The notes under the pieces are model-generated. The model had not been told where the DNA came from and ran no database searches. It saw only the letters and a list, made by a program, of their open reading frames with translations. From the IMG/VR virus record IMGVR_UViG_3300036719_003298, positions 1 through 24,130 of that record: a stretch of DNA of 24,130 nt; one strand, 5' to 3'. Source of the stretch: a virus. The stretch's first letter is position 1. Each line of letters begins with the position of its first letter. Shown here in pieces: positions 2,803 to 18,496 of this stretch. A program made the translations under genes and the position numbers.

Positions 2803-2830
2803 TTGACATCCGCCAGCGATCCGGCATAGT
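2803..2830 (+). promoter_or_regulatory. Candidate leaderless late promoter P1
   Basis: TTGACA at 2803-2808, spacer of 16 nt, CATAGT at 2825-2830. The shared TTGACATCCGCC block is present. The start codon GTG at 2837 begins exactly 34 nt after the first T, so the expected transcription start falls on the start codon. It sits in the 42-nt gap between two genes. Confidence 0.6.
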
Positions 2831-2836
2831 CGCGGC

Positions 2837-3121
2837 GTGAGCCTTCATTCGACCGCGCAAGCCGTTTACGCCGCCTTGGGAGACGACCCGCAGGCAATGG
2901 CGAAAATCCGCAACGAGCGGGCGGCATTGGCATTGTCCATCGCAACGGACCCAAACGCCGGGCTGACGATCACCAGCGCGACAGTCAACGGGCAGAGCTT
3001 TTCCGCCAATGACCGGGGCGGGATCACGGGTTTGCAGAGGCTTTCCATGCTCTCAATCATCTGCCGGTTCGATGACATCGGACAGTCCGCACCCGCCGAA
3101 GCGCACCCGTATTTCTCATGA
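2837..3121 (+). CDS. Small head protein in the gpW position, unknown
   Basis: A 94-residue protein starting at GTG 2837 and ending in an ATGA overlap with the portal gene. The N-terminal half is helical (STAQAVYAALGDDPQAMAKI) and the centre is likely beta (LTITSATVNGQSF), a layout resembling small head-tail joining proteins such as gpW, which occupies the same place between terminase and portal in lambda. I do not recognise it by sequence beyond that. The GTG start is supported by the promoter at 2803-2830 with fixed spacing, and there is no ATG near the N-terminus. It may be a head-completion protein. Confidence 0.6.
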   Translation: MSLHSTAQAVYAALGDDPQAMAKIRNERAALALSIATDPNAGLTITSATVNGQSFSANDRGGITGLQRLSMLSIICRFDDIGQSAPAEAHPYFS

Positions 3122-4947
3122 GCATCCTCAACGAATTCGGCCAGCCCTACACGACCCCGACACGCCTAGCGCACGGGGCCGAGCGCAATCCATATCGCGG
3201 ACCGTTGTTTCCAACCCGCAGGGACGACATCGACAAGCTGATTTCGGTTAGCGATCTGACGAGTCTCCGCAGCTTGTCGAGCCGCCTGTTCATCAACTTC
3301 GGAGTGTGCCGGGATGCGATTTCGCAGAAAGCCCGATACAGCATCGGCAACGCATGGAATCCGGCCTACGTCGGGGAATCGGATTTCGTGGACGGCAAGC
3401 AAATCAGCACATTCATGCGGAAGGTTTGGTTTCCTAACATGAACGTCAAGGGCGGGGTGTTCAATTGGCAAAAGACGCTGGAAGTCACCAGCCAAGGGCA
3501 GGACATCAACGGTGATGTTTTTTGGGTGAAGGTGTTAGGCAAGGACAACTTCCCGCGCATCCAAGTCGTTCCCGCGCACCGGGTCGGCAACGGCGGAGAC
3601 AACACCACCGTAGGAGATGGGAAGTGGAAAGGATTCAAGATTTCGGACGGAGTAATCCTCTACGCATCCGGCAGGCCAGCCGCCTATCGCGTTCTAACGG
3701 GCGAGCAAATGCGGACATTCGTTGACGTGGACGCGAAGGACGTAATCCACATTTTCGACCCCGACTTTGCCGAGCAGAACCGGGGATATCCCGCATTCAT
3801 GCACGCCATCGAGGACATGCTCGCAAGTCTTTCAAGCACCGGCGACGAGCGCATCCGCCAGCAAATCATATCCCGACTGCACCTGAATGTCCACAACGAG
3901 ACGGGCGGCCCGAATACCGACGACCCAATGGTGCAGATGCTTCGCGGGAGCACGGCGGCAGCAACCGCCACGACTGCCGACACCTACGTTGCCAAGGCCA
4001 TGCCTGGGGGAATAGTCTATCACCAATCGGGCAGCGGGGACAAAATGGAGCAGATGCGCCATGAGAACCCGGGCGAGGTTTGGGAGTCCTTCCAAAACCG
4101 AATGATCCGCCAGTCTCTTGCGTCCGTGTGGCCCGCTGCCCTGGTGTGGATGAGCGCCGGCCAAGGCACCGCCGAACGATCCGAGATCATCAAAGCTCGC
4201 GGTTACATCCGCACTCGCCAGCGCGATCTAACCACGCCCGCTCTCCAAGCGTTCGCATGGGCTTATTCCGTGTTCCAACAACAAGGCCGAGTGCCGGAAC
4301 TCGATCACCCGTTCTCTTGGGAGTTTTCCAAGCCAGCACGTCTATCCGTTGACGATGGGCGCGAAAGCAAGATGGAACTTGAAGAATGGCGGGCGGGTGC
4401 GCGAAACATGGGCCAGATACAGGAGGCTCACGGAGGAGCGGGCATTGAGGAATTCTATCTTGAGCGGGCGCACGAAGCCGCATTGCGTAAGGTCATTGCC
4501 CGCAGAGTCTCGGAAGAATACTCCGCGTCATCCGGTTACGAGATCAAGGTCGAGGACCGGGAAATGGCGATGCTCACACCTAACGAAATGGCGGCGATGG
4601 CAAAGCCTGAGACGGAACGCGACGACGGCGAGACTCAATACGACGACGACGGCAACGAAATCGAAACCTCATCAAAGCAGATGGAAAGATTCGACACGCT
4701 GAAATCCAAGTTCGACGCTTACGGCGTTGCCGTTAGGGCTGGCGCAATCACGCCAAGCATTGCGGACGAAACCGCATTCCGCAACGACGCCGGACTTCCG
4801 CCAATGTCTGCGGAAGTAAAGGCCGCATGGAAGAAGGACAAATATGTCAGAAGGCCAATCACGCTGGTTCAAGAAGGAAGCCCGGCAGGATTCGGAACAC
4901 CACCTAACACCTCACCCACAAAACCAAATGAAGATTCTAACGATTGA
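3118..4947 (+). CDS. Portal protein, lambda gpB family
   Basis: This 609-residue protein would form the dodecameric ring at the capsid vertex through which DNA enters and leaves, and to which the neck attaches. The lambda-type portal pattern is visible: an early region with RNPYRGPL and SRLFINFGVCRDAISQKARY, the core stretch DVIHIFDPDFAEQNRGYPAF (residues about 203-222), and later RQSLASVWPA and RGYIRTRQRDL. The C-terminal 130 residues are acidic and low in complexity (ERDDGETQYDDDGNEIE), as in many portals. Length matches the family (lambda gpB is 533). It starts on an ATGA overlap and its last 20 nt overlap the protease start at 4928. Confidence 0.92.
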   Translation: MSILNEFGQPYTTPTRLAHGAERNPYRGPLFPTRRDDIDKLISVSDLTSLRSLSSRLFINFGVCRDAISQKARYSIGNAWNPAYVGESDFVDGKQISTFMRKVWFPNMNVKGGVFNWQKTLEVTSQGQDINGDVFWVKVLGKDNFPRIQVVPAHRVGNGGDNTTVGDGKWKGFKISDGVILYASGRPAAYRVLTGEQMRTFVDVDAKDVIHIFDPDFAEQNRGYPAFMHAIEDMLASLSSTGDERIRQQIISRLHLNVHNETGGPNTDDPMVQMLRGSTAAATATTADTYVAKAMPGGIVYHQSGSGDKMEQMRHENPGEVWESFQNRMIRQSLASVWPAALVWMSAGQGTAERSEIIKARGYIRTRQRDLTTPALQAFAWAYSVFQQQGRVPELDHPFSWEFSKPARLSVDDGRESKMELEEWRAGARNMGQIQEAHGGAGIEEFYLERAHEAALRKVIARRVSEEYSASSGYEIKVEDREMAMLTPNEMAAMAKPETERDDGETQYDDDGNEIETSSKQMERFDTLKSKFDAYGVAVRAGAITPSIADETAFRNDAGLPPMSAEVKAAWKKDKYVRRPITLVQEGSPAGFGTPPNTSPTKPNEDSND

Positions 4948-5998
4948 AAACAAGGCCGCGAAGGTCAGGCTTGACGACCAGGTTGACGAGTATTCCCGCA
5001 AACAGCTCATGGCGGAAATCGCCAAGACCTACGGGTGCGCGAACATCGGCAACGTCGCGGAGTTTGGCGAAATTACCAATGCCGTTGACAACGCAATCGA
5101 CACACTGGAGATCGAAATCAATTCCCCGGGCGGCAGCGTCTTTGACGGCTATCTGATTTTCAACGAGATCAAGGCTTTGCGGGCGCGGGGCGTGGTTGTC
5201 ACCGCCACAATCAACCCACTGGCGGCAAGCATGGGCAGCGTTATCGCAATGGCTGCGGACACCGTGAGGATCGTGCCAAACGGAACAATGATGATTCATG
5301 ACGCGCAGATGTTCACCGGCGGAAACGCCAAGCAGCTTTCCAAAATGGCGAAAGTGCTTGACGACATTTCCAACGAGATCGCCGGAATCTACGCCGCCAA
5401 AACCGGAAAGACCGTCGATGAAATGCGTGCGCTCATGCTTGACGAGACTTGGCTAACCGCCGACGAGTCGGTTGCGCTCGGACTTGCCGATGCGATTTTT
5501 GACATTGGCGCAGCAAGCAATACGCTCCCGCCCATGAAGCTGCTCGACAGACTCACCAACCCCGCCGCCGACGAAGCCGTTGCCGAAATCACCGCTTTGA
5601 AAAATCAACTCGCATCCATCGAAACCGATCACGCGACAGAGCTTGCGGATATGACCGCGAAACTTGATACCGCCAATGCCGCGCTTGAAGACGCCATGGC
5701 GTGGAAGGTTGCGCGTGACGAGGCAACCGCCAAAGTGGAAGCGCTCGAAGCCGCCGTCGTCACCCACGCCGCCGCGCTGAAAGCCGCCGAGGAATCCGCC
5801 GCTTCCAAGGCAATCGAAATCGCTGCTGCTGCCGGCATCACCGCGCCTCTTGAAATCGAAGGCGGTGACACCGCGCCGTCCGACCACATCACCGCAATGT
5901 CCAAAATGAACCCTGTAGAACGCGCGAAATACTTCCGCGCTAACAAGAAGGCGATCATGGCCGACATGCAAAAAACCTCTACTCTAACCACAATCTAA
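4928..5998 (+). CDS. Head maturation protease (ClpP/S49-like) with scaffold-like C-terminus
   Basis: A 356-residue protein. Residues 1-195 form a ClpP-type serine protease: EINSPGGSVFDG (63-74) forms the oxyanion region, the nucleophile is S101 in NPLAASMGS, H124 is in MMIHDAQ, and D172 in MLDETW is a candidate third residue. It would cleave scaffold and head proteins during prohead maturation. Residues 203-356 are alanine- and charge-rich with heptad patterning (AVAEITALKNQLASIETDHA), typical of a scaffold, and resemble the lambda C/Nu3 arrangement. The start at 4928 is chosen over an in-frame codon at 4844 because it begins the conserved beta-strand MKILTIENKAA and keeps the portal overlap to 20 nt. 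There is no Shine-Dalgarno; the leader is C/A-rich. Confidence 0.9.
   Translation: MKILTIENKAAKVRLDDQVDEYSRKQLMAEIAKTYGCANIGNVAEFGEITNAVDNAIDTLEIEINSPGGSVFDGYLIFNEIKALRARGVVVTATINPLAASMGSVIAMAADTVRIVPNGTMMIHDAQMFTGGNAKQLSKMAKVLDDISNEIAGIYAAKTGKTVDEMRALMLDETWLTADESVALGLADAIFDIGAASNTLPPMKLLDRLTNPAADEAVAEITALKNQLASIETDHATELADMTAKLDTANAALEDAMAWKVARDEATAKVEALEAAVVTHAAALKAAEESAASKAIEIAAAAGITAPLEIEGGDTAPSDHITAMSKMNPVERAKYFRANKKAIMADMQKTSTLTTI
5499..5526 (+). promoter_or_regulatory. Candidate internal late promoter P2, before the nested scaffold start
   Basis: TTGACA at 5499-5504, 16-nt spacer, TACGCT at 5521-5526, with TTGACATTGGCG matching the shared block. The in-frame ATG at 5534 begins 35 nt after the first T. 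It lies wholly inside the protease gene, so codon constraint could have produced it by chance; the matching geometry is the argument for it. Confidence 0.45.
5534..5998 (+). CDS. Predicted nested in-frame capsid scaffold protein (Nu3 analogue)
   Basis: ATG 5534 is codon 203 of the protease gene, and the 154-residue product MKLLDRL... would be exactly its scaffold-like tail: an alanine/glutamate-rich coiled coil (about 20-115 of the short form) ending in a conserved-looking segment MNPVERAKYFRANKKA. In lambda, Nu3 is made from an internal in-frame start in gene C, and many phages share this plan. Here a promoter-like sequence sits with near-leaderless spacing before the ATG, so separate transcription is possible rather than only internal initiation. 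The protease domain ends around residue 195, just before this start, which fits a modular boundary. Separate expression is inferred, not shown. Confidence 0.5.
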   Translation: MKLLDRLTNPAADEAVAEITALKNQLASIETDHATELADMTAKLDTANAALEDAMAWKVARDEATAKVEALEAAVVTHAAALKAAEESAASKAIEIAAAAGITAPLEIEGGDTAPSDHITAMSKMNPVERAKYFRANKKAIMADMQKTSTLTTI

Positions 5999-6010
5999 CC
6001 ACACAATCCA

Positions 6011-6907
6011 ATGGCAACCGTCTTTAACGACATCCTCTTCGGCCAGACTGTTCTCCAACAGCTCACCGACACCCTCACCCCGCTCAACGCTTTCTCGACT
6101 GACATTTCGTCAGACGTTAAAAGCCCCGGCGCTACCGTGGTCGTGCCTCTCTATGGCAACCTGACCGCAACCACCTACACCCAGGCCGCGTCCGTCATGG
6201 AGGGCACCGGGGGCACCGCTTCCGCCGTCACCGTCTCGCTGTCGCAGCGCAAGATCGTTTCGGTTGACCTTACTTCCGGCCAACTCATGGAATCCAACGC
6301 CGCTGCGAATTACTCCCGTTGGGGAACGCAACTCGCGTCCGGTTTGGCAACTCTTGTCCTGCAGGACATCTGGTCGTGCATCGTCACCACCAGTTTCGGC
6401 GAGCCGGTCGTCACCACGGCATCCGCCAGCTTCGGGCGCACCGCGCTCATTGCGGCACGCACCGCGCTTATCAAGGAGGCGGTCAAAGGCAACAAGTCGT
6501 GCATCATCAACACCGGCATGGAGGCATCCTTGCTCGGCGTCGATGCGTTCGTGTTGGCACTCAATCGCGGCAACAACAACACCATCGAAACCGGCACTCT
6601 CGGGCGCCTGCTCGGCATGGACATCTACGTTTCCGACGTCATCCCGACCAACAGCATCAGCCTTACCGGATTCTGCTGCGGCTCTGACGGCATCGCGTTC
6701 GCTTCCCGCGCCATCGGTGATTTCATCCCGACTGGAGACTACGAGGCCGTCGAAACCCTCACGGACCCCGAAACCGGAATGTCCTTCCTGTATACGCGCC
6801 ACTGGAGCCGCGCGGCAGCGAAGTATTTCATCAACTTGCAATGTCTCTACGGCTACGTTGCCGCTGTCACCAGGGCGCTGAAACCGTTCGTCACCGCCAC
6901 TACCTAA
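6011..6907 (+). CDS. Major capsid protein
   Basis: A 298-residue protein directly after protease/scaffold and before a strong terminator. It has features of HK97-fold or P22-like coat proteins: an N-terminal helix (FNDILFGQTVLQQLTDTLTPLNAFS), a beta region with PGATVVVPLYGN, a central A-domain helix pair (GRTALIAARTALIKEAVKGNKSCIINTGMEASLL) and an acidic DYEAVETLTDPETGMSFLYTRHW strand before a hydrophobic C-terminus. Position and composition support the call; no individual family motif is decisive. There is no Shine-Dalgarno: the start follows a C/A-rich leader with two CTAACC copies (5984-6000). I see no promoter directly upstream, so it is probably read with the upstream head genes or from the internal promoter at 5499. 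Confidence 0.85.
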   Translation: MATVFNDILFGQTVLQQLTDTLTPLNAFSTDISSDVKSPGATVVVPLYGNLTATTYTQAASVMEGTGGTASAVTVSLSQRKIVSVDLTSGQLMESNAAANYSRWGTQLASGLATLVLQDIWSCIVTTSFGEPVVTTASASFGRTALIAARTALIKEAVKGNKSCIINTGMEASLLGVDAFVLALNRGNNNTIETGTLGRLLGMDIYVSDVIPTNSISLTGFCCGSDGIAFASRAIGDFIPTGDYEAVETLTDPETGMSFLYTRHWSRAAAKYFINLQCLYGYVAAVTRALKPFVTATT

Positions 6908-6934
6908 CCTTCTTCGGTTGGTGTTTCATGCAAC

Positions 6935-6969
6935 CCGCCGTCCTCTTCACCGGGGGCGGCGGTTTTTTT
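6935..6969 (+). terminator. Rho-independent terminator after the capsid gene
   Basis: CCGCCGTCC (6935-6943) pairs with GGGCGGCGG (6954-6962) over about 9 bp with one G-U pair, an internal loop of about 10 nt, and then seven T (6963-6969). It would end the head operon and insulate the sugar-modification block. Confidence 0.85.
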
Positions 6970-6973
6970 GTGC

Positions 6974-7001
6974 TTGCACGGCATCAAAAAATCGGCAATA
7001 T
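6974..7001 (+). promoter_or_regulatory. Candidate promoter P3 for the glycosyltransferase block
   Basis: TTGCAC at 6974-6979, 16-nt spacer, CAATAT at 6996-7001, beginning 5 nt after the terminator's T run. The start codon at 7010 is 36 nt from the first T. It lacks the TTGACATC block but has the same -10 position and the CGGCA just before it that is seen in P4 and P6, so it looks like a relative. Confidence 0.5.
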
Positions 7002-7009
7002 CCGAACCC

Positions 7010-9304
7010 ATGACAAAGACAGAGCGAAAGCGGGGGCTGAGTTTGTGCGTGATTGCAGGGAATGTGGATGGTCAGATTGGAAGGTTTCTGGATCAGTTTG
7101 AACCGCTGGCGGATGAGATCGTGGTTGTTCTCGCCGTTGGAGATCGGCCCTTGGATAGCACGTTGGAAATCGCTGAAGCTCACGGATGTGTGGTTTCGCA
7201 GTATTTCAACGAAGGCCACCCAGGTAACGGGCCTGAACACTGGCTGCCAAACAGGAGATCGGAAAGAAATCTCTGGCCGCACGTTGACGACTTCGCCGCC
7301 GCCCGCAACATGGCATTCGACATGGCGTCTAACGATTTCATCATGTGGGCCGACACCGACGACACCATCACGCCGGAATCCATCGAGGCCATCCGCGATG
7401 CGCTCGACCGCATGCCCGACGATTGCGTTGCCATCGAGTTCCCCTACCAGGTGCCGGAAGATGGAATTGAAATCTATCGGGAGCGCATCATCCGCAAAGG
7501 ATCAGCGCGGTGGATAAATCCCATCCACGAACAACTTCAGTTTGACGGAACTCCGAAGTTCATGCGGATTTCAAATGCCAAGATTACGCACATGGCCGAC
7601 CTTGATAGAAGTGCCAACGACGAGCGCAACCTGCGGATTCTGGAAAGCATACCTGAGGAGCAACGCACATCCTCGCAGAGATTCCACATGTTCCAATCAC
7701 TCCGCGCCGTTGGCAGGCACGATGACGCGCTTGTCGTTGCGACCGATCTGTTGCAAGACGCGCCGAAAGATGTTGGAGACGCGGAGCGATATGAGCTTTT
7801 TATCGCCTGCGGACAGCTTGCCGACGATCCCGCCAACCGAGCGCAAATGATGTTGCAGGCATTGGCAACCGATCCTTCGCGCCGGGAAGCATATGGTGAA
7901 CTCGCGCTGTGCAAGATCGGTTTCGGAAAGCCGGAACACGCTCTCGGACTAACCAAGGCGATGCTATCCATCAGCCAACCGTCAACCGATGTTTGGAATC
8001 GACGCGGCAAGTATTATGGCTATCTCGGAAAGCAACTGCACGGAATGTCTCTGCGGGCCTGCGGGCGTTACGGGGAAGCGGACGTTCTGGAGTCCAACCA
8101 CTTCATCTTGAACGGCGCGAGGATTTCGCTTATCCACGCCACACGCGGGCGCGTAAAGCAGGCCGTCGAAGCCCGCCGCAAATGGTTTGCCAGAGCCGCC
8201 AACCCGGACGCCATTGAACATATTTTCGCGCTCGATGCGGACGATGAGACGGCGATGTTTCTAACCGTCCACAACCACGTCATGCTTTCGGGCATCGGCG
8301 GCAACGTCGCGGGATGGAACGCGGCGGCGACAAAAGCCAAGGGAGACGTTCTGGTGCAAATGTCTGACGACTGGAATCCTCCTATGCACTGGGACAAGCT
8401 GATTCTCGACGCGATTGGCGACACGTCACAACCAGCGGTTCTAGCAGTATCGGATGGTGGCAGGAATGACGGCTTGCTTTGCATGGCGATCATGACCCGC
8501 GCTCGATACAAGCAGCAGGGCTGGATGTTCCACCCGGATTTCTTCAGCGTCTATTCCGACAACTGGTTCACCGATTGCGCGAGACGCGACGGCGTTATTA
8601 TCGACTGCCGGGACTCTATCACCTTTGAACACCTTCACCCGGCATTCGGCAAGGCGGAAGTTGATGCAACCTACATGCGCGGAAACTCGGAACCGGCCTA
8701 TCGAAAAGGCATCGTCCATTACGATAGGCTCAAGGCGGGCGCGAAAACATCGCACGATATCGCCGGATGGTGCAATTACCGCGAGTTCTATCAGACACTT
8801 GCGGAGGCATTGCCGGGCGGCGGGACATTCGTGGAGGTCGGATCATGGCTGGGTCAGTCGATCATTCACTTTGCACAACGCTGCCAAGACGTGGGGAAAC
8901 GCATGGATATTGTTTGCGTGGACACCTTCAAGGGCGAGGTCGGGCAAGAGGCGCACGCTGCCACCATCGAGGAACACGGCGGAAGCATAGAGGACGCATT
9001 CCGAATGAACATTGCGGAGGCGAGGGTGGATGACATGATCCGCGTCGTTGTCGGAGACAGCGCGGAATCTGCAAGTCAATTCGCGGACGGATCACTGGTC
9101 GGCTGCTACATAGACGCCGCGCACGATTACGAGAGCGTTTGCAATGATTTGGCGGCATGGTATCCGAAAGTCACCAAGGGCGGCGCATGGTGCGGCCACG
9201 ATTGGCAATGGCACGAAGTCAGAAAAGCCGTCACCGAACACGCCGAGGCCAACGGATACGAGATTCAAACAATGCCCGGCAACGTGTGGATGCGAAAACA
9301 ATGA
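7010..9304 (+). CDS. Glycosyltransferase-TPR-glycosyltransferase-methyltransferase fusion
   Basis: A 764-residue multi-domain enzyme. Residues 8-215 are a GT2-like glycosyltransferase (SLCVIAGNVDGQIGRFLDQF at 11-30, metal/nucleotide-binding WADTDD at 113-118, IHEQL at 172-176). Residues about 225-365 are helical pairs like TPR repeats (QSLRAVGRHDDALVVATDLL). Residues about 370-575 form a second GT-like domain (ISLIHATRGR at 372-381, VQMSDDW at 449-455). Residues about 585-764 are a class I SAM methyltransferase: FVEVGSWLGQS (607-617, SAM loop), IVCVDTF (634-640), GCYIDAAHDYESV (698-710), GGAWCGHDW (724-732). It could build and methylate a glycan on the virion or on a host surface. The first ATG past the promoter (7010) is chosen over TTG 6968, which lies within the terminator. 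It is followed by a second GT2 gene. The target is unknown. Confidence 0.82.
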   Translation: MTKTERKRGLSLCVIAGNVDGQIGRFLDQFEPLADEIVVVLAVGDRPLDSTLEIAEAHGCVVSQYFNEGHPGNGPEHWLPNRRSERNLWPHVDDFAAARNMAFDMASNDFIMWADTDDTITPESIEAIRDALDRMPDDCVAIEFPYQVPEDGIEIYRERIIRKGSARWINPIHEQLQFDGTPKFMRISNAKITHMADLDRSANDERNLRILESIPEEQRTSSQRFHMFQSLRAVGRHDDALVVATDLLQDAPKDVGDAERYELFIACGQLADDPANRAQMMLQALATDPSRREAYGELALCKIGFGKPEHALGLTKAMLSISQPSTDVWNRRGKYYGYLGKQLHGMSLRACGRYGEADVLESNHFILNGARISLIHATRGRVKQAVEARRKWFARAANPDAIEHIFALDADDETAMFLTVHNHVMLSGIGGNVAGWNAAATKAKGDVLVQMSDDWNPPMHWDKLILDAIGDTSQPAVLAVSDGGRNDGLLCMAIMTRARYKQQGWMFHPDFFSVYSDNWFTDCARRDGVIIDCRDSITFEHLHPAFGKAEVDATYMRGNSEPAYRKGIVHYDRLKAGAKTSHDIAGWCNYREFYQTLAEALPGGGTFVEVGSWLGQSIIHFAQRCQDVGKRMDIVCVDTFKGEVGQEAHAATIEEHGGSIEDAFRMNIAEARVDDMIRVVVGDSAESASQFADGSLVGCYIDAAHDYESVCNDLAAWYPKVTKGGAWCGHDWQWHEVRKAVTEHAEANGYEIQTMPGNVWMRKQ

Positions 9305-9327: not shown

Positions 9328-9887
9328 AACTATCCATCCTTACACCCGCCATCCCAGAGCGCATTGCTCAAGCCGTCGAACTCTCCGCGAAGATTCAAGC
9401 GCAAGCCGGAAGCGGCCACGTTGAACACCTGATATTCTGCGACAACCGGATGCGTTCAATCGGCGCAAAACGGCAGGCGCTTGTGGACATCGCACGCGGC
9501 GATTACGTCGCGTTCTGTGATGACGATGACGATATTTCCGAAGATTACATTCCGTCTATCTTGGAAGCGACAATGGCGGGACCGGACGTCATCACGTTCC
9601 ACCAGCGGGCAATCTGGCTCGGGCGCGAGACGGAGGTGCATTTCGGATTGAATAACTCTGACGGGCCGTTCGTGCTGGGCGGGATCACGATGCGGGCACC
9701 ATGGCACGTTTGCGCCTGGAGACGGTCTGTGGTGGCCGGGTGCCTGTTTGGGGAGTCGAACTACGGGGAGGATTTGGAATGGTGCCTACAGGCACGCAGG
9801 CGCGTAAAAACGGCCATCCACATTCCGCGCATCCTGCACACCTACCGGCACGACGAGAAAACCAGTGCCGCGCCGCCGCCGCTTTGA
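9324..9887 (+). CDS. Small GT2-family glycosyltransferase
   Basis: A 187-residue protein that is almost only the catalytic GT-A core. The N-terminal strand is MKLSILTPAIPERIAQ. GDYVAFCDDDDDISEDYI (59-76) holds the acidic DxD-type metal/nucleotide-sugar site, and YGEDLEW (147-153) matches the ED position of the catalytic base in GT2 enzymes, followed by IPRILHTYRHDE. It is shorter than typical GT2 proteins (230-300) and lacks a membrane segment, so it is probably soluble and works with the preceding fusion enzyme. The start at 9324 begins the conserved strand. A longer frame from 9144 lies inside the upstream methyltransferase domain and is rejected. Its TGA stop (9885-9887) sits within the -35 of the next promoter. 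Confidence 0.8.
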   Translation: MKLSILTPAIPERIAQAVELSAKIQAQAGSGHVEHLIFCDNRMRSIGAKRQALVDIARGDYVAFCDDDDDISEDYIPSILEATMAGPDVITFHQRAIWLGRETEVHFGLNNSDGPFVLGGITMRAPWHVCAWRRSVVAGCLFGESNYGEDLEWCLQARRRVKTAIHIPRILHTYRHDEKTSAAPPPL

Positions 9888-9911
9888 CATCGGCCACAAA
9901 AACGGCATGAT
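9884..9911 (+). promoter_or_regulatory. Candidate leaderless late promoter P4
   Basis: TTGACA at 9884-9889 overlaps the stop codon of the preceding gene. A 16-nt spacer leads to CATGAT at 9906-9911. The block TTGACATCGGCC is present and ATG 9918 lies exactly 34 nt from the first T. Confidence 0.6.
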
Positions 9912-9917
9912 GCAGCC

Positions 9918-10253
9918 ATGAGTTTGCTGTCCGACTTCGTGGCGTCCGTGGCACCGCTTGCCATAACAACCATCGGCGCGGAGTCGATTACGGTTGCAGG
10001 CGGGAGTTCTGTTGGCGCGATCCTGAACGAGGTGTCGAGCGGAAGCACGTTTGGCGATGTCGGGTTTGACGCGGACACGGCGCTCACCGCGCTCGTATCA
10101 CGGGCCGACTGGACGGTTGCCGGGTATTCAGCGACCGGATCGACCTACGTCAAGAAGACGGCGACGGCGCGAGGTCTGACATTCCGCGTGGATCGGATCG
10201 AGATTGGCGCACATTTTGTAAAGTTGACGCTTTCCGAGCCGACGCGGGCCTGA
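9918..10253 (+). CDS. Head-tail joining candidate (FII-like position)
   Basis: A 111-residue, beta-rich protein with an N-terminal helix (MSLLSDFVASVAPLA), then strands ITTIGAESITVAGGSSVGAI, and a C-terminal part with VKKTATARGLTFRVDRIEIG and FVKLTLSE. The size, single helix followed by beta sheet, and location before the gp10-like and tail-completion genes fit phage head-tail connectors such as lambda FII, which close the portal and accept the tail. I recognise the layout, not a diagnostic motif. It has its own promoter with 34-nt spacing and no Shine-Dalgarno. The accessory cassette separates it from the rest of the neck module. Confidence 0.5.
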   Translation: MSLLSDFVASVAPLAITTIGAESITVAGGSSVGAILNEVSSGSTFGDVGFDADTALTALVSRADWTVAGYSATGSTYVKKTATARGLTFRVDRIEIGAHFVKLTLSEPTRA

Positions 10254-10258
10254 TTTCC

Positions 10259-10363: not shown

Positions 10364-10405
10364 TGCGTTGTCAGCACGAGCTGACCAACCAAAGAAAGCA
10401 AAACC

Positions 10406-11491: not shown

Positions 11492-12030
11492 GCGCAGCAC
11501 TTCTAACATCCGACATTCCTGCCGACGTAACGGGATGGTGGGTATCCGAGAAATACGACGGCGTGAGAGCCATCTGGAACGGCACGAAACTCCTAACGCG
11601 CAACGGCAAAGACCTCCACGCCCCGCCATCCTTTACTGCCGGCCTGCCGAAAAACATCCGGCTTGACGGCGAGCTATGGATGGGGCGCGGGACGTTCGAC
11701 AAGCTTGTGTCCGTCATCCAGCGCAAAGGCTCGGATTGGTCCGGCGCGCGCTACATGGTCTTTGACGTTGCCAAACCCGGAGCTTTTGAGCACCGACTGA
11801 TGGTGCTGGATGCTTTGCGCGCGACCATGACCAACCCGGCCATCCAGATTGTCCGTCATCAGCCGCTGTGGAGCAACCTGGAGCTAGACATGCGCGAGCG
11901 GGACATTGTAGCCAAGGGCGGCGAAGGATGCGTCATACGACGTCCGGGGCACCTTTATCGCCCCGGCAGGGCTGGCGACGTCATCAAGGTCAAGCGGCTA
12001 GTGGCAGACGTGGAAAGGTGGCAGGGATGA
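11488..12030 (+). CDS. ATP-dependent DNA ligase, catalytic core only
   Basis: A 180-residue nucleotidyltransferase of the ATP-dependent DNA ligase family. The motif order is intact: motif I EKYDG with nucleophile K22 (lysine-AMP), R38 in TRNGK, motif III RLDGELW (59-64), VFDV of motif IIIa (91-94), motif IV GEGCVIRRP (145-153) and motif V VIKVKR (165-170). The frame ends about 10 residues after motif V, so the OB-fold that normally clamps the DNA (as in other minimal ligases of about 270 residues) is missing. It may need a partner for DNA binding, or may serve another nucleotidyl transfer. Both ends are ATGA overlaps, which fix this reading frame. A longer frame from 11428 is rejected. Confidence 0.85.
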   Translation: MSAALLTSDIPADVTGWWVSEKYDGVRAIWNGTKLLTRNGKDLHAPPSFTAGLPKNIRLDGELWMGRGTFDKLVSVIQRKGSDWSGARYMVFDVAKPGAFEHRLMVLDALRATMTNPAIQIVRHQPLWSNLELDMRERDIVAKGGEGCVIRRPGHLYRPGRAGDVIKVKRLVADVERWQG

Positions 12031-12443
12031 AAGCGGGAAAAACGATCCCATCTCGGCTACCGGATGGCAGAATGAACCCCGAATACCAAAAAGCCCGACA
12101 CGCAAAAATGATCGAGGCTGGCATCTGTCGGAGCATGGCCGAATATCAAAAGCACAGGAAAGAAGAACGTCGGAAGGCTGGCAAGGAAATCAGCCGCGCC
12201 GAATACCTGAGAGAATATCGCAAAAGAAGAAAGACGGAAGGTCGGCCATTGAAGCAGTATCCCCGATCCAAAGAAACCATTCGCCGCTGGAACGAATCTG
12301 AAAAAGGGAAGGCCGCTTACGCTCGATACATGGCCAGAAATAAAGGGATGCGAGGGAATCGCGAACACCACGAAACGGGCGACGAGTATGCTTCGCGCAT
12401 CATCCGCGAACTGGAGGAAATCTATAAGCTTGGCGACTTTTGA
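12027..12443 (+). CDS. Highly basic helical protein, unknown
   Basis: A 138-residue protein rich in Lys, Arg and Glu. It has an irregular threefold repeat of aromatic-plus-basic helices (EYQKHRKEERRKAGK, EYLREYRKRRKTEGRP, KAAYARYMARNKGMRG), a pattern seen in DNA-binding regions next to phage HNH or AP2-type domains, although no nuclease motif is present. It starts on the ATGA overlap with the ligase stop and so may supply the DNA contact the ligase lacks; that is inference. Its own TGA stop lies inside the -35 element of the promoter at 12440. It is the last gene of the accessory cassette. Confidence 0.65.
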   Translation: MKAGKTIPSRLPDGRMNPEYQKARHAKMIEAGICRSMAEYQKHRKEERRKAGKEISRAEYLREYRKRRKTEGRPLKQYPRSKETIRRWNESEKGKAAYARYMARNKGMRGNREHHETGDEYASRIIRELEEIYKLGDF

Positions 12444-12467
12444 CATCGGCGGCACGGTCGGCATGAT
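12440..12467 (+). promoter_or_regulatory. Candidate leaderless late promoter P6
   Basis: TTGACA at 12440-12445 overlaps the TGA stop of the cassette's last gene (12441-12443). A 16-nt spacer leads to CATGAT at 12462-12467, the same hexamer as P4. The GTG start at 12474 is exactly 34 nt from the first T. Confidence 0.6.
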
Positions 12468-12473
12468 GGCCGC

Positions 12474-13175
12474 GTGCTCACCGCCAAGATAGACACCGCC
12501 ACGCTACGCCGCTCAATCAAGCGGGCCGTCAAAGCCGTTGGCGAGACGGGCGAGCAGGCAACCGCCAGATGGGGCGTGGAATGCTGCCGGGGATTGGCAA
12601 AGCAAACCCAGGTGTGGGGATCGCCGTCAAAAATCCCGCCGAAACAAATCGGGGCCATTGAAAGCGATGCGAAAAACGTCGTCATGGTCATCAACAATCC
12701 GCGCCCTAACGACAAGCGGATTCTAAAATCGGCGCGGGACGTTTACGATTGGGTTGAACTCAACCGGACCCGCAGGCGCGGGCGCACGGCAAAGCTCGAC
12801 GTGCGCGACAAGAAAATCTGCACGCAATCGGTTTTTGACGCGGCGTGCAAGATGCGGATCGCCAAGGCTGGAGAAGCAAAGGGCGGGTGGATCCGCGCAG
12901 GCATGGAAATCGCCAGTCGTTATCTGACTCTTGACCGCGTTAAAATCGGCAAGGGATTCATCCCGTGGGCGGCTAGGCACGCATCCCGAAACATCGGCAC
13001 CGGCACGATGAAAGGCGGATGGTCACCGACCGCCATGCTTGAAAACATCGTCCGTTATTCTAACGACAAGAATGTTCTCAGCCTGAAGCTGGCGCAACGT
13101 GCCATCTTGTGGGCCGGAAAAAACGTCTTGAAACGCTACGAGAAAGTCCTCGAAAACCGACTGAAACGCGCATGA
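12474..13175 (+). CDS. Neck/tail-completion protein (HK97 gp10-like position)
   Basis: A 233-residue basic protein whose N-terminal helix (IDTATLRRSIKRAVKAVGE) and size fit the gp10-like or minor tail Z-type proteins that join head and tail in siphophages. It lies between the head-tail connector and the tail terminator candidates. The middle contains PPKQIGAIESDAKNVVMVINNPRP and a basic linker (RTRRRGRTAKL), and the C-terminus is helical. The start is GTG 12474, positioned exactly 34 nt from the -35, so probably leaderless. It ends in an ATGA overlap with the next gene, supporting co-translation of this neck pair. Confidence 0.6.
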   Translation: MLTAKIDTATLRRSIKRAVKAVGETGEQATARWGVECCRGLAKQTQVWGSPSKIPPKQIGAIESDAKNVVMVINNPRPNDKRILKSARDVYDWVELNRTRRRGRTAKLDVRDKKICTQSVFDAACKMRIAKAGEAKGGWIRAGMEIASRYLTLDRVKIGKGFIPWAARHASRNIGTGTMKGGWSPTAMLENIVRYSNDKNVLSLKLAQRAILWAGKNVLKRYEKVLENRLKRA

Positions 13176-13603
13176 AAACAATCCCTGAATCAATCCGTGA
13201 CTGGATAGAAAACCAGGCACCGTCCGCTGACATCCTCGACGGCATCACCGTTCACATCGGCGGCGAAACCAGCGACCTCGAGCCGCCGTTCATCGCCGTC
13301 TTTGAAACCGGCAGCGAACCGTTTGAACAAAACGACGCCACGCTTTACGGCGTGTCCACCTACGAAATCACAGTGGAGTTGCACACCCTGCCAACAAGCG
13401 ACGGGACGACGGCGGAAAACGAGGCATTGATGCGCGAGGCGCTTTTCGACATCCTGGAAGATCGGGACATGCTTTTCCCGTGGATCGAAAACCGCAACTC
13501 ATGGCGCATTTTTGACATCCGCCTTCCAAGCCCTATAACGGTCTCCGAAGACGGCGTGCGCGTTTCGAGATTCGCCCTGACCGTCATCGCCTGTCCAATC
13601 TAA
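13172..13603 (+). CDS. Tail terminator / tail-completion protein candidate
   Basis: A 143-residue protein: an N-terminal helix (IPESIRDWIENQ), then an alternating strand pattern (ITVHIGGETS, PPFIAVFETGSEPF, TYEITVELHTLP), a helix (NEALMREALFDILE) and two final strands (RIFDIRLPSPI, VSRFALTVIACPI). This alpha/beta layout matches small tail-terminator proteins such as lambda gpU, which cap the tail tube and join it to the head, and the gene sits directly before the tube-protein candidate as in lambda. Start on the ATGA overlap at 13172. A strong promoter-like sequence lies inside its 3' end. Confidence 0.6.
   Translation: MKTIPESIRDWIENQAPSADILDGITVHIGGETSDLEPPFIAVFETGSEPFEQNDATLYGVSTYEITVELHTLPTSDGTTAENEALMREALFDILEDRDMLFPWIENRNSWRIFDIRLPSPITVSEDGVRVSRFALTVIACPI
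13512..13539 (+). promoter_or_regulatory. Candidate intragenic promoter P7 for the tail-tube gene
   Basis: TTGACA at 13512-13517, 16-nt spacer, TATAAC at 13534-13539: the best -10 match of the whole set, with the shared TTGACATCCGCC block. No start codon stands at 34 nt. The first gene downstream is at 13616, giving a leader of about 70 nt. Confidence 0.5.
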
Positions 13604-13615
13604 CCACTCTCCACC

Positions 13616-14044
13616 ATGTCAAAAGCCACCGTTTACGCCGCCGCACAATACGGACTCGCAACTGAAACAACCGCAACCGGCCTTGTCGTGGGGTCAATCT
13701 CATGGGATGGATCATGCGATACCGTTGAACTTCCCGACCACATTGGATGCGTCATTGGCCTGTCAGTCGGCAATCCTCGCAAAGAGGTGAAGTGCGACGG
13801 GATCATCGCTACCAAGGCGACCGGACTTGTTGGCAACCTCGGGGCCGTGCTCACGTTGTCCAACACCACGACCAACAGCCGCACGCGCAACAGCGAAGGA
13901 CTTGACGTCACGCCCGCCGCTGGTGCCGGTATCATCATCACTTCCAACGCAATATCGCCGACAAGCAACGGATTTGAAGGCGGAAGCGTTGGCGGCGTTT
14001 ACTTCCCGTTCATCGCTACTGCTACCGTTTACACCGCGACCTAG
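13616..14044 (+). CDS. Major tail (tube) protein candidate
   Basis: A 142-residue protein rich in Thr, Gly, Ala and Val with an alternating beta pattern (TGLVVGSISWDGSCD, AGAGIIITSNAISP, GGVYFPFIATATVYT), few charges and no membrane segment. It follows the tail-terminator candidate and has a possible strong promoter of its own (13512-13539), which fits a protein needed in many copies such as the tail tube subunit. It is smaller than many tube proteins (lambda gpV is 246), so the call rests mainly on place and composition. The leader is C/A-rich (CTAACCACTCTCCACC) with no Shine-Dalgarno. Confidence 0.5.
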   Translation: MSKATVYAAAQYGLATETTATGLVVGSISWDGSCDTVELPDHIGCVIGLSVGNPRKEVKCDGIIATKATGLVGNLGAVLTLSNTTTNSRTRNSEGLDVTPAAGAGIIITSNAISPTSNGFEGGSVGGVYFPFIATATVYTAT

Positions 14045-14056
14045 CGGATTTGAACC

Positions 14057-14659
14057 ATGACATTCGAGACAGGCACGCACGATCTAACCGGGACAGTTCT
14101 CCGACACAGCGGAGACGTCAATCTTGTGGCCGCGCTCATGTCGCTCGGCATCCCTTTGGAAAACGACGATCCGGTCTCCGTAGTGGATTCGCCAAACGCA
14201 AGCCGCCCGTATGGGTCATTCCGATTCCACGATCTATCGGATGACGGCGAGACGGACGCGGAAACTTTGATGCAGGCATGGTCAGGCGACATCGTGCTCG
14301 AGGACACGCACGGCTTCGCGCAAATCTGCCGATTCATCCGCGCCCGCCCGCGAGGATCACAGAGATCCGATGCGCTGCTGGATTTTGCCATCGAGTATCT
14401 ACAGGAACGCGGACACACCATGCCGGGACTGCGGACGCTGAATGACATCCCCGACTTCGTGCGGGCGCTGCCACAAGGTGAAGCCGCCTATGTCTTGGCT
14501 TACGTTTGGAACCGTGAGATTTGCTATCAGTTATTCCGGCAGGCATCCCGCCGCGTCCATTTGACGGAAGGCACCGGCAAAGACACCCGGCACGCCATCC
14601 TCGACACCCGGCTCCCGAAATGGAAAAGCCGCGAACTTCTCTCCCGCTTGCAGGGCTAA
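14057..14659 (+). CDS. Tail-region protein, unknown
   Basis: A 200-residue protein that I do not recognise. The N-terminal half is mixed and acidic (LSDDGETDAETLMQAWSGDI); the C-terminal half is helical and basic (QLFRQASRRVHLTEGTG, LPKWKSRELLSRL). It lies between the tail-tube and chaperone genes, where lambda has nothing equivalent, and is spaced 12 nt from the gene before and 21 nt from the one after. A role in tail assembly is likely from context only. No signal peptide, membrane segment or enzyme motif is visible. Confidence 0.6.
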   Translation: MTFETGTHDLTGTVLRHSGDVNLVAALMSLGIPLENDDPVSVVDSPNASRPYGSFRFHDLSDDGETDAETLMQAWSGDIVLEDTHGFAQICRFIRARPRGSQRSDALLDFAIEYLQERGHTMPGLRTLNDIPDFVRALPQGEAAYVLAYVWNREICYQLFRQASRRVHLTEGTGKDTRHAILDTRLPKWKSRELLSRLQG

Positions 14660-14680
14660 CAAGAAACCAAGAAACGACAC

Positions 14681-15082
14681 ATGAAACGAGAATGTCTCCT
14701 AGCGAAAACCTACACCGGGCCGCCGATGATCCTCGACGGCACCGAACTCTTTTATTCACCGCTTGCCAATGAGATCGTGCGCGAATTCCAAACCGCGTTC
14801 TTCTGCGGCGAGGGCGTTGGCGACCAGACCGCGCACCACGGGCTATGCGAGGGCATCCTAATCATGTGGCTCATTGCCAAAAACCAATTCGCGGAGATCG
14901 ACCGCTTGCGGAACATGACCCGCCCGGAAAGGCACAAGCTGGTGCTGGATTTCATGCTGCGCCACGCGGACGTCATGGACGAACTCAAGGACCAACTGAT
15001 AGAACGCGTAAACGCGGCGATGGCCGCGGGCGTGGAAAGCGAGGCGCAGGGAAAGCCTCTGGCGCAACACCGGGAATTATAG
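14681..15082 (+). CDS. Tail assembly chaperone, G-type (short form)
   Basis: A 133-residue helical protein just before the tape measure. In lambda-like phages the G protein and its frameshifted G-T form guard the tape measure and recruit tube subunits. Support: the position, the size, a helix-rich acidic/basic C-terminal half (LDFMLRHADVMDELKDQLIERVNAAM), and a slippery heptamer near its 3' end in the correct phase (15049-15055). Translation that does not slip runs 9 more codons (PLAQHREL then TAG, 15080-15082). There is no Shine-Dalgarno; the leader is AACAAGAAACCAAGAAACGA. Confidence 0.75.
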   Translation: MKRECLLAKTYTGPPMILDGTELFYSPLANEIVREFQTAFFCGEGVGDQTAHHGLCEGILIMWLIAKNQFAEIDRLRNMTRPERHKLVLDFMLRHADVMDELKDQLIERVNAAMAAGVESEAQGKPLAQHREL

Positions 15083-15309
15083 CCGTCATAGATAGCTACT
15101 GCATACGCCATGGACTACCCTCAGATACCGTTATCAGGACATGGGACTTCGGGAGAATCCTGCAACTTATGCACGTCGAAGGTGTTAGAAACGGCGGGAG
15201 TTTTCAATGGGTGCAATTCCTCGACCCGTCGCCCGAGCTTTTGGCACGCTTTGAAACGGCGGGTGATATTGCTGCTGACTGGCAAAACCTAGAACCACAA
15301 TTCACATGA
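14681..15309 (+). CDS. Tail assembly chaperone, G-T fusion made by -1 frameshift
   Basis: Slipping by -1 at G GGA AAG (15049-15055) moves ribosomes into a frame that stays open to TGA 15307-15309. The fusion has about 209 residues: 125 from the G part and about 84 of a T domain (GATPGIIAVIDSYCIRHGLP ... ADWQNLEPQFT). The T segment reads as a real protein, with regular helices and no normal start of its own near the junction, which fits expression only by frameshifting. In lambda the T domain binds the tape measure protein. The T frame's stop overlaps the tape-measure ATG as ATGA (15306-15309), a further sign that the frame is used. Confidence 0.82.
15049..15055 (+). other. Programmed -1 ribosomal frameshift site GGGAAAG
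   Basis: The heptamer is G-GGA-AAG in the zero frame of the G-type gene, the canonical X XXY YYZ form and the same heptamer used by lambda G/T. The zero-frame stop follows 25 nt later. Confidence 0.85.
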
Positions 15310-16487
15310 TCGGAACCAAAGTAGTTGTCGGATATGACCAGAATGCGGTCGTCAAGGGGCTGAAAGGAACCGAGGGGCTTTTCAAAAACGCGTTCAAACA
15401 AATCGGAATCGGCGCGGCACGGCAGGTTGGATACGGCATTACAAACATGCTTGGAAAAATTGCGTCCGCACTTCCAACGGTGACGGTAAACGCGCTGAAT
15501 TTTGGCGAGTCTCTTTTTGAGATGAGCGAGCAAACCGGGATATCCATTGGAAAACTATTGGAACTGCAAGAGGCGTTGCGGATGTCTGGAGTTGACATGT
15601 CCGACCCGGCAAAGGCGATTTCTACATTCTCCAAGAATCTATTCGAGGCAACGCAGGGGCCGGGCGTGCGTGACCTGCTGGAAAAACTTTTCGGCAAATC
15701 CGACATCGCTCGCGAACTTTACAAGATGAAGCCGGATGAGGCGATTTACAAGATCACCGAAAAAGTAGGAGACGCTCTGAGAAGCGGACTCATGAAGGAA
15801 GGCGAGGCCAGCAATATCTTCACGGGTCTCTTTCCCGCAAAACAAGGAGGGTTTGATTTCGTCAAGTTTGCGAAAAACTACTCGGAATCAATGGCGCAGG
15901 CGCGGCAGCACATGGCATCACAGATTCCGTTATGGGAAAGACTCGCCAAACGAGCGGACGCATTCAATGACGCTCTCGGAAGGGGTAAAAACGCCGCCAA
16001 CGCTTTAGGAGGGATCATCCTAGAAAGGATCATCAACATCACGGAAAAGGGCGGCGGGCTGGACAAGCTGTTCGATTTTTTTGACCCGATGAAGCAGGAG
16101 AGCAACATCAATGCTTTGTTCGACATGATCGAGGCAAGGATCCGCGAACTTGCAAACGGTGATATTAAAGTGATGTTTTCCAATATATCGAGAGATTTAG
16201 GAAAAGCATTTGGAGAGGGAGTTCGCAGTGAAATGAACCCGTTCAAGCCAGCAATGGATTCCGTTTACAATGCCGGGGGCGCTTTGGCGTCACATCCGGC
16301 GCTATCACCCACATCCTTGGGATTGGCGTCCGCTCCCGTAAAGGCCATGCTGCCAATGGTTGGAATCATCGAGGCCGCGTTCAAGATTTACGAGCGCAAT
16401 CAAATCCAACAACTCAAAAAAACGGATGAGGGCAATGCGTATTTGAAAGCATCTCTCAGGGATAAATACTCAACATTCGCACCATAA
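15306..16487 (+). CDS. Tape measure protein (short)
   Basis: A 393-residue, mostly helical protein directly after the G/GT chaperones, the usual place of the tape measure that sets tail length. It has an N-terminal VVVGYDQNAVVKGLKG region, a hydrophobic stretch (IGIGAARQVGYGITNMLGKIASALP, 34-58), and ALNFGESLFEMSEQTGISIGKLLELQEALRMSGV, a pattern I associate with phage tail tape measure proteins. A second apolar, Ala/Gly/Pro-rich segment lies at about 310-345. At roughly 0.15 nm of tail per residue, the length suggests a short tail near 60 nm. The stop and next start share TAATG. Confidence 0.75.
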   Translation: MIGTKVVVGYDQNAVVKGLKGTEGLFKNAFKQIGIGAARQVGYGITNMLGKIASALPTVTVNALNFGESLFEMSEQTGISIGKLLELQEALRMSGVDMSDPAKAISTFSKNLFEATQGPGVRDLLEKLFGKSDIARELYKMKPDEAIYKITEKVGDALRSGLMKEGEASNIFTGLFPAKQGGFDFVKFAKNYSESMAQARQHMASQIPLWERLAKRADAFNDALGRGKNAANALGGIILERIINITEKGGGLDKLFDFFDPMKQESNINALFDMIEARIRELANGDIKVMFSNISRDLGKAFGEGVRSEMNPFKPAMDSVYNAGGALASHPALSPTSLGLASAPVKAMLPMVGIIEAAFKIYERNQIQQLKKTDEGNAYLKASLRDKYSTFAP

Positions 16488-17353
16488 TGAGCAAGGCAAA
16501 AATAATCGGCTTCGCACGCAACACGCTGTATCCCGGCCCGTCTCTAACCATCACTCAGGCGACTGATGGTGCGACGACCGCCACGATGGATTTCCGATGC
16601 ATCAAGGGCGACATCGGCGGTTTGCAAATCAGAAAGCTGCTGGCGAAAGGCGTCGGCATCGAAAACCTCTATTCATCGATCCCTGCATACTATCGGTTTC
16701 TAACCGTTGAAAGCTGGGATGCTAGTGATGAAGCGGGAGCGATCACGACCGTATCCGTGAAGTTCACCGGCACAGCAACGCCGGAACCGGAGACGCCGGA
16801 GGATGATCCATCTAGCGAAAGCACGACCTACACGCGGAACACTTCGCTAAAGGAATCGCCAATCCAAGCAAGTAAGGAATTCACGGATCTTACCAGCGCG
16901 GCCACATTCAAACCGGGGGGCAAAGAATCCAACGAGGATGGGCAGCCAGAACCGAACCTAATAGCTGGCGGAATCAGAGGAGACTTCGACCAGGACGGGG
17001 CGACCTATGCGATCCGCGACAAGATCACGCACGAAGGCGTCGGGACCATTACAAGCGCGGCAGGAATCGCTATGTGGAATAAATGCGTTAGAGACGGAAT
17101 TACCACATGCAGAACGCCGACGACGGAATGGACGGAAAGCGGATCTAAACTCGGGCGACTGACGAATGCACAAGTTGCATTTTACGGACGTATATGGGGA
17201 ATTGAAGGCAGAGTAGTCCCCGGAAACCCAACAGTCGTGGAAGTATGGGAGAAATCCGGAACGTGGTGGTTTACCGGCATCACCGAAAACATTGAGGGAT
17301 CCGACACCGGAGTTTCTACCAATCGCTACACTCGAACCTGGACCTGCGAATGA
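16487..17353 (+). CDS. Distal tail / tail-tip protein, unknown family
   Basis: A 288-residue protein after the tape measure, where lambda-type phages carry tail-tip proteins. Two beta-rich parts (residues 1-95 and about 165-288) flank an acidic, low-complexity linker (TPEPETPEDDPSSESTT, about 96-112). The C-terminal part has VEVWEKSGTWWFTGITENIEGSD and a pair of cysteines near C199/C206 (NKCVRDGITTC). The first part resembles tail-tube or hub beta domains in composition (FRCIKGDIGGLQIRKLLAKG), but I cannot name the family. Joined to the tape measure by TAATG and overlapping the next gene by 4 nt. Confidence 0.6.
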   Translation: MSKAKIIGFARNTLYPGPSLTITQATDGATTATMDFRCIKGDIGGLQIRKLLAKGVGIENLYSSIPAYYRFLTVESWDASDEAGAITTVSVKFTGTATPEPETPEDDPSSESTTYTRNTSLKESPIQASKEFTDLTSAATFKPGGKESNEDGQPEPNLIAGGIRGDFDQDGATYAIRDKITHEGVGTITSAAGIAMWNKCVRDGITTCRTPTTEWTESGSKLGRLTNAQVAFYGRIWGIEGRVVPGNPTVVEVWEKSGTWWFTGITENIEGSDTGVSTNRYTRTWTCE

Positions 17354-17991
17354 TTTCTGAAATTCCCATCATCCTCCCTCGCCGCGTGCATCCCGGCCAA
17401 GCCGTGACTGCTGACTGGGCGAACAGCATCCGCGAGGCGATAAACAGGCTGGCAAACATCCGTGGACCGCAACCTCGCGCAAGGGGCGGGGTGAACGTCA
17501 CCGAATACATCCCGCCGTTCTATTTGGAACCTATCAGCGAATTCGTTTTGCGCGTCCACCCCGGCAAGTTGATCCTGACCATGCACTCTATCGAGGGGGT
17601 GGCTGGCGGCGGATACGGAACTCCGATAATCGACTTCGACAGAACCGGAACGGGAGCGCCAATCCAAATTGTCCCGAAGGTCGGAGCCAACGCGCTTTCC
17701 GTCTATCGGGACTTGACGATACCGGAAACCACTCCCGGCCATCCGTGCCTGACATGGGAAACAAACACCTACGACGGGGAAATATCCTACCAAGCCGACA
17801 CCTGCAAAGTGGAGTTTTTGACGGATACGACATGGGTCGATCCGCCGATTTACACCAGCGGAGCAGGCAACGAAAAGCACATCTTCCAACTTGGCACCTA
17901 CACCGCCAGCGCGGGCGAGACTGGTGCGATTTCCTCACAACTACGCGGCAACGTGTTCTACACGCATTCTCATGTTTGGATTGAAAACTAA
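17350..17991 (+). CDS. Tail-tip/baseplate-like protein, unknown
   Basis: A 213-residue protein starting on an ATGA overlap. It opens with a helical region (HPGQAVTADWANSIREAINRLAN, 14-36) and continues as a beta-rich domain with GVNVTEYIPPFYLEPI, HPGKLILTMHSIEGVAGGG and a late Gly/Tyr/Thr-rich portion (IFQLGTYTASAGE) ending in YTHSHVWIEN. The layout, an anchoring helix followed by beta domains with terminal His-x-His, recalls small tail-tip or receptor-adaptor proteins. No family is assigned. A promoter-like site follows its stop immediately. Confidence 0.58.
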   Translation: MISEIPIILPRRVHPGQAVTADWANSIREAINRLANIRGPQPRARGGVNVTEYIPPFYLEPISEFVLRVHPGKLILTMHSIEGVAGGGYGTPIIDFDRTGTGAPIQIVPKVGANALSVYRDLTIPETTPGHPCLTWETNTYDGEISYQADTCKVEFLTDTTWVDPPIYTSGAGNEKHIFQLGTYTASAGETGAISSQLRGNVFYTHSHVWIEN

Positions 17992-17997
17992 GCCAAA

Positions 17998-18025
17998 TTG
18001 ACATCCGCCAGCCAAAAACTACCCT
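17998..18025 (+). promoter_or_regulatory. Candidate leaderless late promoter P8
   Basis: TTGACA at 17998-18003, 16-nt spacer, TACCCT at 18020-18025 (matching only the TA...T frame of a -10). The block TTGACATCCGCCAGC is the same as in P1. ATG 18032 stands exactly 34 nt from the first T. It would drive the fibre-region genes. Confidence 0.55.
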
Positions 18026-18031
18026 TCCGCC

Positions 18032-18496
18032 ATGGCAATTTCTTCCTCTCGCGCAATCTTCGGGCTTCAGGCCATCGGCACCGAGACTGGTCCGCTAGCA
18101 TCCGGCAGCGTCACATTGGGCGCACCGCAGACGCAGGTTAACTTTACGGACGCGGACGTTTGCTATTCGACGCAAATCACGCTTTCATCCTCGCAGAATC
18201 CCGTATTGGCGGTGACCACCGGAGACGTCACGGCAGACGGTGCGACCGTTCTGGACGGCGACGGCAAGGACTTTCAGGGCGACGACATCACGACCATTGT
18301 CACGCTCTACGGCGTGTGTGTGGAACTCGTCACCGGAGCCGTGTCTATCAGCGACGGCACGAACACGTTCCCCACGCCGGCGCAATTCTGGTTCGACAGC
18401 GGGAGCACCGCCACCGAACTGCTCGGCAACCTGACGCTAACCGGCACGGGCGCAAGCTCGTCTGTCATCATCACCGTAATCGGAAAATCCTCCTAA
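18032..18496 (+). CDS. Beta-rich virion protein, related to the next gene
   Basis: A 154-residue protein, Thr/Ser/Gly/Val-rich with few charges and no signal peptide. Its C-terminal half (78-151: GKDFQGDDI..., SDGTNTFPTPAQ..., SSVIITVIGK) aligns with residues 280-353 of the next protein, and its N-terminus (AISSSRAIFGLQAIGT; FTDADVCYSTQITL) resembles that protein's N-terminus. The two thus look like products of a tandem duplication in which the second copy gained a middle domain. The location before the fibre suggests a tail-tip, decoration or fibre-support role. Its start is fixed by the promoter spacing. Confidence 0.62.
   Translation: MAISSSRAIFGLQAIGTETGPLASGSVTLGAPQTQVNFTDADVCYSTQITLSSSQNPVLAVTTGDVTADGATVLDGDGKDFQGDDITTIVTLYGVCVELVTGAVSISDGTNTFPTPAQFWFDSGSTATELLGNLTLTGTGASSSVIITVIGKSS

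Follow-up and report, generated by a model that had tools for sequence, protein, structure and literature searches.

Start-codon-anchored TTGACA sites as probable late promoters in a clade of Verrucomicrobiota tailed phages

The window analysed here is the whole of a 24,130-nucleotide stretch of a linear IMG/VR phage record (IMGVR_UViG_3300036719_003298, positions 1 to 24,130), with its late region on the plus strand. This region includes the small and large terminase subunits, portal, protease/scaffold and major head protein, and further on glycosyltransferases, a ligase, tail genes and an amidase. One 778-amino-acid open reading frame (6968-9304) fuses glycosyltransferase-like and methyltransferase-like parts. 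Between 10640 and 11165, CCAACCAACC runs, instead of Shine-Dalgarno sites, precede several small reading frames.

The pattern TTGACATYSGCS is found at exactly the six positions given in the first-pass annotation (2803, 5499, 9884, 12440, 13512 and 17998), always on the plus strand and never on the minus strand. Out of 1000 dinucleotide shuffles of the window, 939 contain no match, 59 contain one and 2 contain two, which is the maximum; the six-site pattern is real and goes beyond chance. All six sites have the reported hexamers at a distance of 22 nt from their first T. Likewise, a GTG or ATG follows at 34 nt for four of them (2803, 9884, 12440 and 17998) and at 35 nt for 5499, as had been described. 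The additional TTGACAT that had been noted does exist, but at 15592 rather than 15590, and a second one is located on the minus strand at 13622.

All features described below are on the plus strand. Predicted promoter 1 (2803..2830; TTGACATCCGCC-N10-CATAGT) lies between the terminase and portal genes and leads to GTG 2837, the start of a 94-amino-acid gene (2837..3121) without Pfam or PHROG match, whose position between TerL and the portal gene corresponds to that of lambda gpW. Predicted promoter 2 (5499..5526; TTGACATTGGCG-N10-TACGCT) is situated inside the reading frame 4844-5998, which encodes a ClpP-type protease plus scaffold, and its ATG 5534, internal to this frame and in phase with it, begins the scaffold part (5534..5998; phrog_94, head maturation protease). 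A separate scaffold with its own predicted promoter inside the protease-scaffold frame resembles lambda Nu3. At predicted promoters 3 (9884..9911; TTGACATCGGCC-N10-CATGAT) and 4 (12440..12467; TTGACATCGGCG-N10-CATGAT) the TGA stop of the upstream gene falls within TTGACA (9885-9887 and 12441-12443); they precede ATG 9918 of a 111-amino-acid gene, head-closure-like by position (9918..10253), and GTG 12474 of a 233-amino-acid gene, tail-completion-like by position (12474..13175). Predicted promoter 6 (17998..18025; TTGACATCCGCC-N10-TACCCT) precedes ATG 18032 of a 154-amino-acid gene (18032..18496), and G001 carries the same TTGACATCCGCC at 20372, with ATGGCAATTTC at 34 nt. The remaining site 5 (13512..13539; TTGACATCCGCC-N10-TATAAC) has the best -10 of the six. 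It lies in the end of the reading frame 13109-13603, where it encodes FDIR, and has no start codon at 34-35 nt; the next gene (13616..14044; 142 amino acids, tail-tube-like by position) starts 104 nt downstream. If used, this site would produce a leader of about 70 nt before 13616.

Relatives were gathered with the terminase and its alignment, resulting in about 60 contigs at 39-62% identity and a few that are more distant (a search with the capsid protein found no relatives). The proposal that the pattern should be enriched before late genes of related phages was borne out: it precedes head and tail genes at the same 34-35 nt. In 64 new terminase-matched contigs, mostly of close relatives, TTGACA stands 34 nt before the start codon of an open frame in 49 cases and 35 nt before it in another 49, against at most 16 cases at any other offset (98 at 34/35 together); since the relatives are not independent of one another, the evolutionary events are fewer than these counts suggest. 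Several of the lesser offsets (38, 41, 44, 50 and 53) correspond to in-frame codons of the same genes, and a scan of all 6-mers at all offsets ranks TTGACA at 34/35 top in the window and its group. For 55 non-redundant clade sites the consensus is TTGACAT[TC][CG]GC, with A at offset 23 (42 of 55) and RTG at 34/35. The six window sites are members of a large family of TTGACA sites before late genes, common to about 60 related Verrucomicrobiota phages. In the isolated Verrucomicrobia phage P8625 (L196), whose host is Puniceicoccales IMCC8625, TTGACA lies at a distance of exactly 36 nt upstream of four annotated genes, which start at 5448, 10772, 15594 and 22442. These sites are found at 5412, 10736, 15558 and 22406, three of them with a GTATCC..GGATAC-type inverted repeat spanning the -10 region. 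Sites upstream of the terminase (L142 at 234, L156 at 393, L188 at 9215 and G300 at 19213), which probably precede the small-subunit gene, differ in their downstream half (GTTAGC, GTTAGG or CTTAGC) and perhaps constitute another promoter class.

Recurrence was also counted gene by gene. The site precedes the gene after TerL (ortholog of 2837) in 47 of 59 contigs, and all 13 detectable scaffold orthologs have one at the same or a nearby distance, the predicted promoter being located where the protease part ends and leading to an internal start, like that at 5534 in the window. For the 9918 gene the count is about 17 of 35 contigs and for the 12474 gene 9 of 37, about half or fewer, so individual sites come and go. 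For the tail-tube-like gene (13616), a site lies about 100-113 nt upstream in most of the 32 contigs in which the gene was detected. Given that sites 5499 (encoding FDIG) and 13512 (encoding FDIR) are in coding sequence, it might be argued that the motif reflects chance or protein-coding constraint. The other four sites, however, are intergenic, and at the tube-like site most FDIR cases are written TTT GAC, against 33% of FD dipeptides in general. In L136-L140 FDIR became LDIR and TTGACATCCGC was nevertheless kept; L135 has its own dialect block here instead of TTGACATCCGC. For the family as a whole this explanation is refuted by the shuffles and by the recurrence in relatives, and we regard it as hardly credible.

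The sites look like sigma-70-type promoters in their upstream half: TTGACA is the -35 consensus, one-mismatch variants (TTGCCA, TTGACT, TTGTCA) are tolerated, and TTG is the strictest and most conserved part, which is -35-like. The A at offset 23 would be the second base of a -10 element with a 16-nt spacer. The hexamer that had been taken as the -10 fares less uniformly: in the window, position 2 is A at all six sites and position 6 is T at five of them, but clade-wide only the A holds (42/55, against 16/55 for the T, in the 55 non-redundant sites). Six bases separate this -10-like hexamer from the start codon. The upstream stop codon is mostly found within about 25 nt before TTGACA or overlapping it, which leaves space for little besides a promoter. 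Stop-codon readthrough or reinitiation as the sense of TTGACA was rejected, since the position of the stop varies and it lies inside TTGACA in only 8 of the 55 sites. A short and fixed promoter-start distance (34/35 nt; 36 nt in P8625) is what leaderless promoters display, and a constant spacing between -35 and start codon is most simply explained by leaderless transcription. Together with the six-base gap and the stops abutting TTGACA, this spacing is consistent with transcription starting at the start codon. Judged from the sequence, the mRNAs of the 34-35 nt sites probably begin at the start codon and are leaderless.

At phylum level, we infer Verrucomicrobiota as the host. Terminase matches at E < 1e-20 are present in 17 of 289 Verrucomicrobiota genomes, compared with 0/299, 1/246 and 0/247 in three other groups, taken as Pseudomonadota, Planctomycetota and Bacteroidota (names inferred from the loci used). 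The P8625 terminase has been reported to cluster with Verrucomicrobia prophages (PMC4642752). With regard to leaderless starts, Akkermansia is listed as Shine-Dalgarno-scarce (PMC10783764). In one sampled Verrucomicrobiota genome (G122), starts are preceded by a -10-like TAnnnT at a distance of 12-13 nt and by hexamers resembling TTGACA at 35-36 nt; other sampled host genomes are less clear in this respect. The exact 38-nt pattern is nearly absent elsewhere: the whole genome collection contains 30 matches, spread over many phyla, which is about the chance expectation by an information-content estimate, so in this exact form it does not represent a general host promoter. A single match each was obtained in Prosthecobacter L062 and Verrucomicrobia L066, which were set aside.

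The 12-bp block, originally described as the shared element, did not hold as such: only TTGACA and the spacing are universal, and sister phages carry other blocks. TYSGC is the form in most of the clade; L080, L081 and L150 have CGAAAC, L133-L135 (G304) have an operator-like inverted repeat (TCTAACA-N5-TGTTAGA) directly after TTGACA, L182 has GCTAGATTTGATC, and P8625 has TTATTGGATAC, repeated further down from TTGACA. For 21 phages we compared the agreement of sites within and between phages, with 500 label shuffles. At offsets 6-13 the agreement is 0.563 within a phage against 0.459 between phages, and at offsets 21-28 it is 0.487 against 0.314; none of the 500 shuffles reaches either value. 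The control region upstream of the -35 shows no difference (0.264 within, 0.262 between; 201/500 shuffles). Each phage thus has a recognition element of its own that is common to its sites, as is characteristic of activator-dependent phage promoters. Block and -10 region agreeing within a phage and differing between phages argues for a phage-specific trans-acting factor, and these patterns point to such a factor acting with host RNA polymerase.

The earlier suggestion that an activator or modified sigma factor reads the block gains support from the dialects as far as a factor is concerned. A search of 16 related phage records, mostly fragments, for sigma-70 region-4 domains gave nothing above cut-off, so a phage sigma factor is no more than putative. 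Similarly, no conserved non-structural gene emerged as candidate regulator from the reading frames of seven larger contigs, and no RNA polymerase or activator gene was seen among the frames scanned, prophage frames included (contigs mostly fragments). These negative searches would suit ordinary host sigma-70 leaderless promoters that operate without any phage factor, the block then reflecting host -35 and spacer preferences, as would the correctly spaced -10-like A behind TTGACA and the same geometry before host genes of G122. Such promoters would not be expected to vary in block and -10 region between phages while agreeing within one, the -10 is poorer than expected of a factor-free promoter, and the 38-nt pattern is found in the genome collection at about chance level. 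We consider this explanation unlikely.

In more remote prophages, with terminase identity of about 32%, the 6-mer most tightly anchored to starts is once more TTGACA, now at 19-20 nt. Carriers are the Verrucomicrobiota prophage regions L092, L112-L119 and L122-L131 (for example L130 at 10728), and the form is marked by G or T before TTGACA and G at offset 17. Around its start codons, stems of at least 6 bp occur in 30% of sites, compared with 8% in shuffled sequences and 7% at control starts, frequently with the start codon in the loop. No enrichment was observed in the host chromosome stretches examined, and a phylum-wide count of the 19-nt form gave a modest excess over a reversed-pattern control that was too noisy to rely on. 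Ordinary promoter geometry does not account for this form: a usual -35 at this distance would place the transcription start inside the gene. The late transcripts of T4 lysozyme provide a model for read-through RNA silenced by a hairpin. On one reading of the 19-20 nt form, the hairpin would silence read-through RNA, and translation would be limited to RNA whose 5' end is near the ATG. More broadly, and tentatively, Verrucomicrobiota phages and prophages may share a late system built on TTGACA, with a leaderless 34-36 nt form that has dialects and a co-evolving factor and a sister clade at 19-20 nt in which frequent hairpins bury the start in read-through RNA; we see this as possible, albeit doubtful. 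If true, the start-site geometry of the 19-20 nt form would be without known precedent for bacterial holoenzyme.

Two further explanations draw on these prophages. A phage-encoded RNA polymerase or sigma factor reading the whole element, as in giant phages, would account for the strict motif, the dialect of each phage and a hexamer at 19-20 nt that bacterial holoenzyme does not explain. The hexamer recognised is nonetheless identical to the sigma-70 -35 consensus, and neither the region-4 search of 16 phage records, at the cut-off used, nor the scan of prophage frames disclosed a corresponding gene; we rate a phage polymerase or sigma factor as very unlikely. An RNA-level signal, for translation or processing, could underlie the fixed distance to start codons and the frequent location of these codons within hairpins in the 19-20 nt prophages. 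In the window clade, though, hairpins around the start are no more frequent than after shuffling (stems of at least 6 bp: 0.09 in both), 34 nt exceeds the usual upstream ribosome contacts, the tube-like and G004 scaffold sites are far from a start codon, and the tolerance to mismatches resembles that of a -35. An RNA signal is highly improbable in our view.

We favour, with moderate confidence, late promoters of a Verrucomicrobiota tailed-phage clade, served by host polymerase with a phage-specific factor and with a leaderless start. Host RNA polymerase of the sigma-70 type would contact the invariant -35, while the phage-specific factor, most likely an activator or a sigma-appropriating protein, would read the block behind it (TYSGC in the window phage) and/or the -10 region and compensate for the poor -10. 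The transcript would then begin at the start codon itself, 34-35 nt downstream of the first T, and the mRNA of each head or tail module would be leaderless, which would suit a phylum that makes little use of Shine-Dalgarno sites; site 13512 would act with a longer leader ahead of the tail-tube-like gene. GTG is a frequent start codon at these sites, and we count this against the proposal, along with the weak clade-wide -10, the negative searches for a regulator (seven larger contigs) and for a region-4 domain (16 records), the patchy presence of sites at orthologs of 9918 and 12474, and the non-independence of the relatives.

Seemingly little is known about transcription in Verrucomicrobiota phages: the literature searched yielded no paper on the subject and nothing on these promoters. 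A start-anchored promoter family can be of value for finding late operons directly and for correcting start codons in uncultured phages. It also makes leaderless translation testable in a Shine-Dalgarno-poor phylum, and the natural set of promoter dialects offers a route to a new class of phage transcription factor.

Leaderless sigma-70 promoters are known, for example, from mycobacteria, where the -35/-10 geometry sets the transcription start on the start codon (PMC4633059). The sites described here would share this geometry and likewise need no Shine-Dalgarno sequence (PMC4633059). They differ in combining a very strong -35 and a block with a poor -10, and in being restricted to late genes of phages. 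Activator-dependent phage promoters include the T4 middle promoters, with a MotA box and AsiA. As in these, a phage-specific element adjoins the -35 position and the polymerase core would be that of the host, but here TTGACA is intact, the -10 is the weak part, the start is predicted to be leaderless and the activator is only putative. Late promoters of the AR9/phiKZ type (AACA-N6-TA/G, with the start at the A/G) also consist of a short late motif close to the start and are used by phage-encoded multisubunit RNA polymerases (PMC5312081), unlike the present phages, in whose scanned reading frames there is no gene for such an enzyme. P8625, whose genome paper does not mention promoters (PMC4642752), has the same link between TTGACA and start codon as the window clade, but at 36 nt and in another dialect. 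Overall, leaderless promoters have been described before, as have late promoters specific to a phage; to judge from the papers searched, their clade-conserved combination with a dialect for each phage is new.
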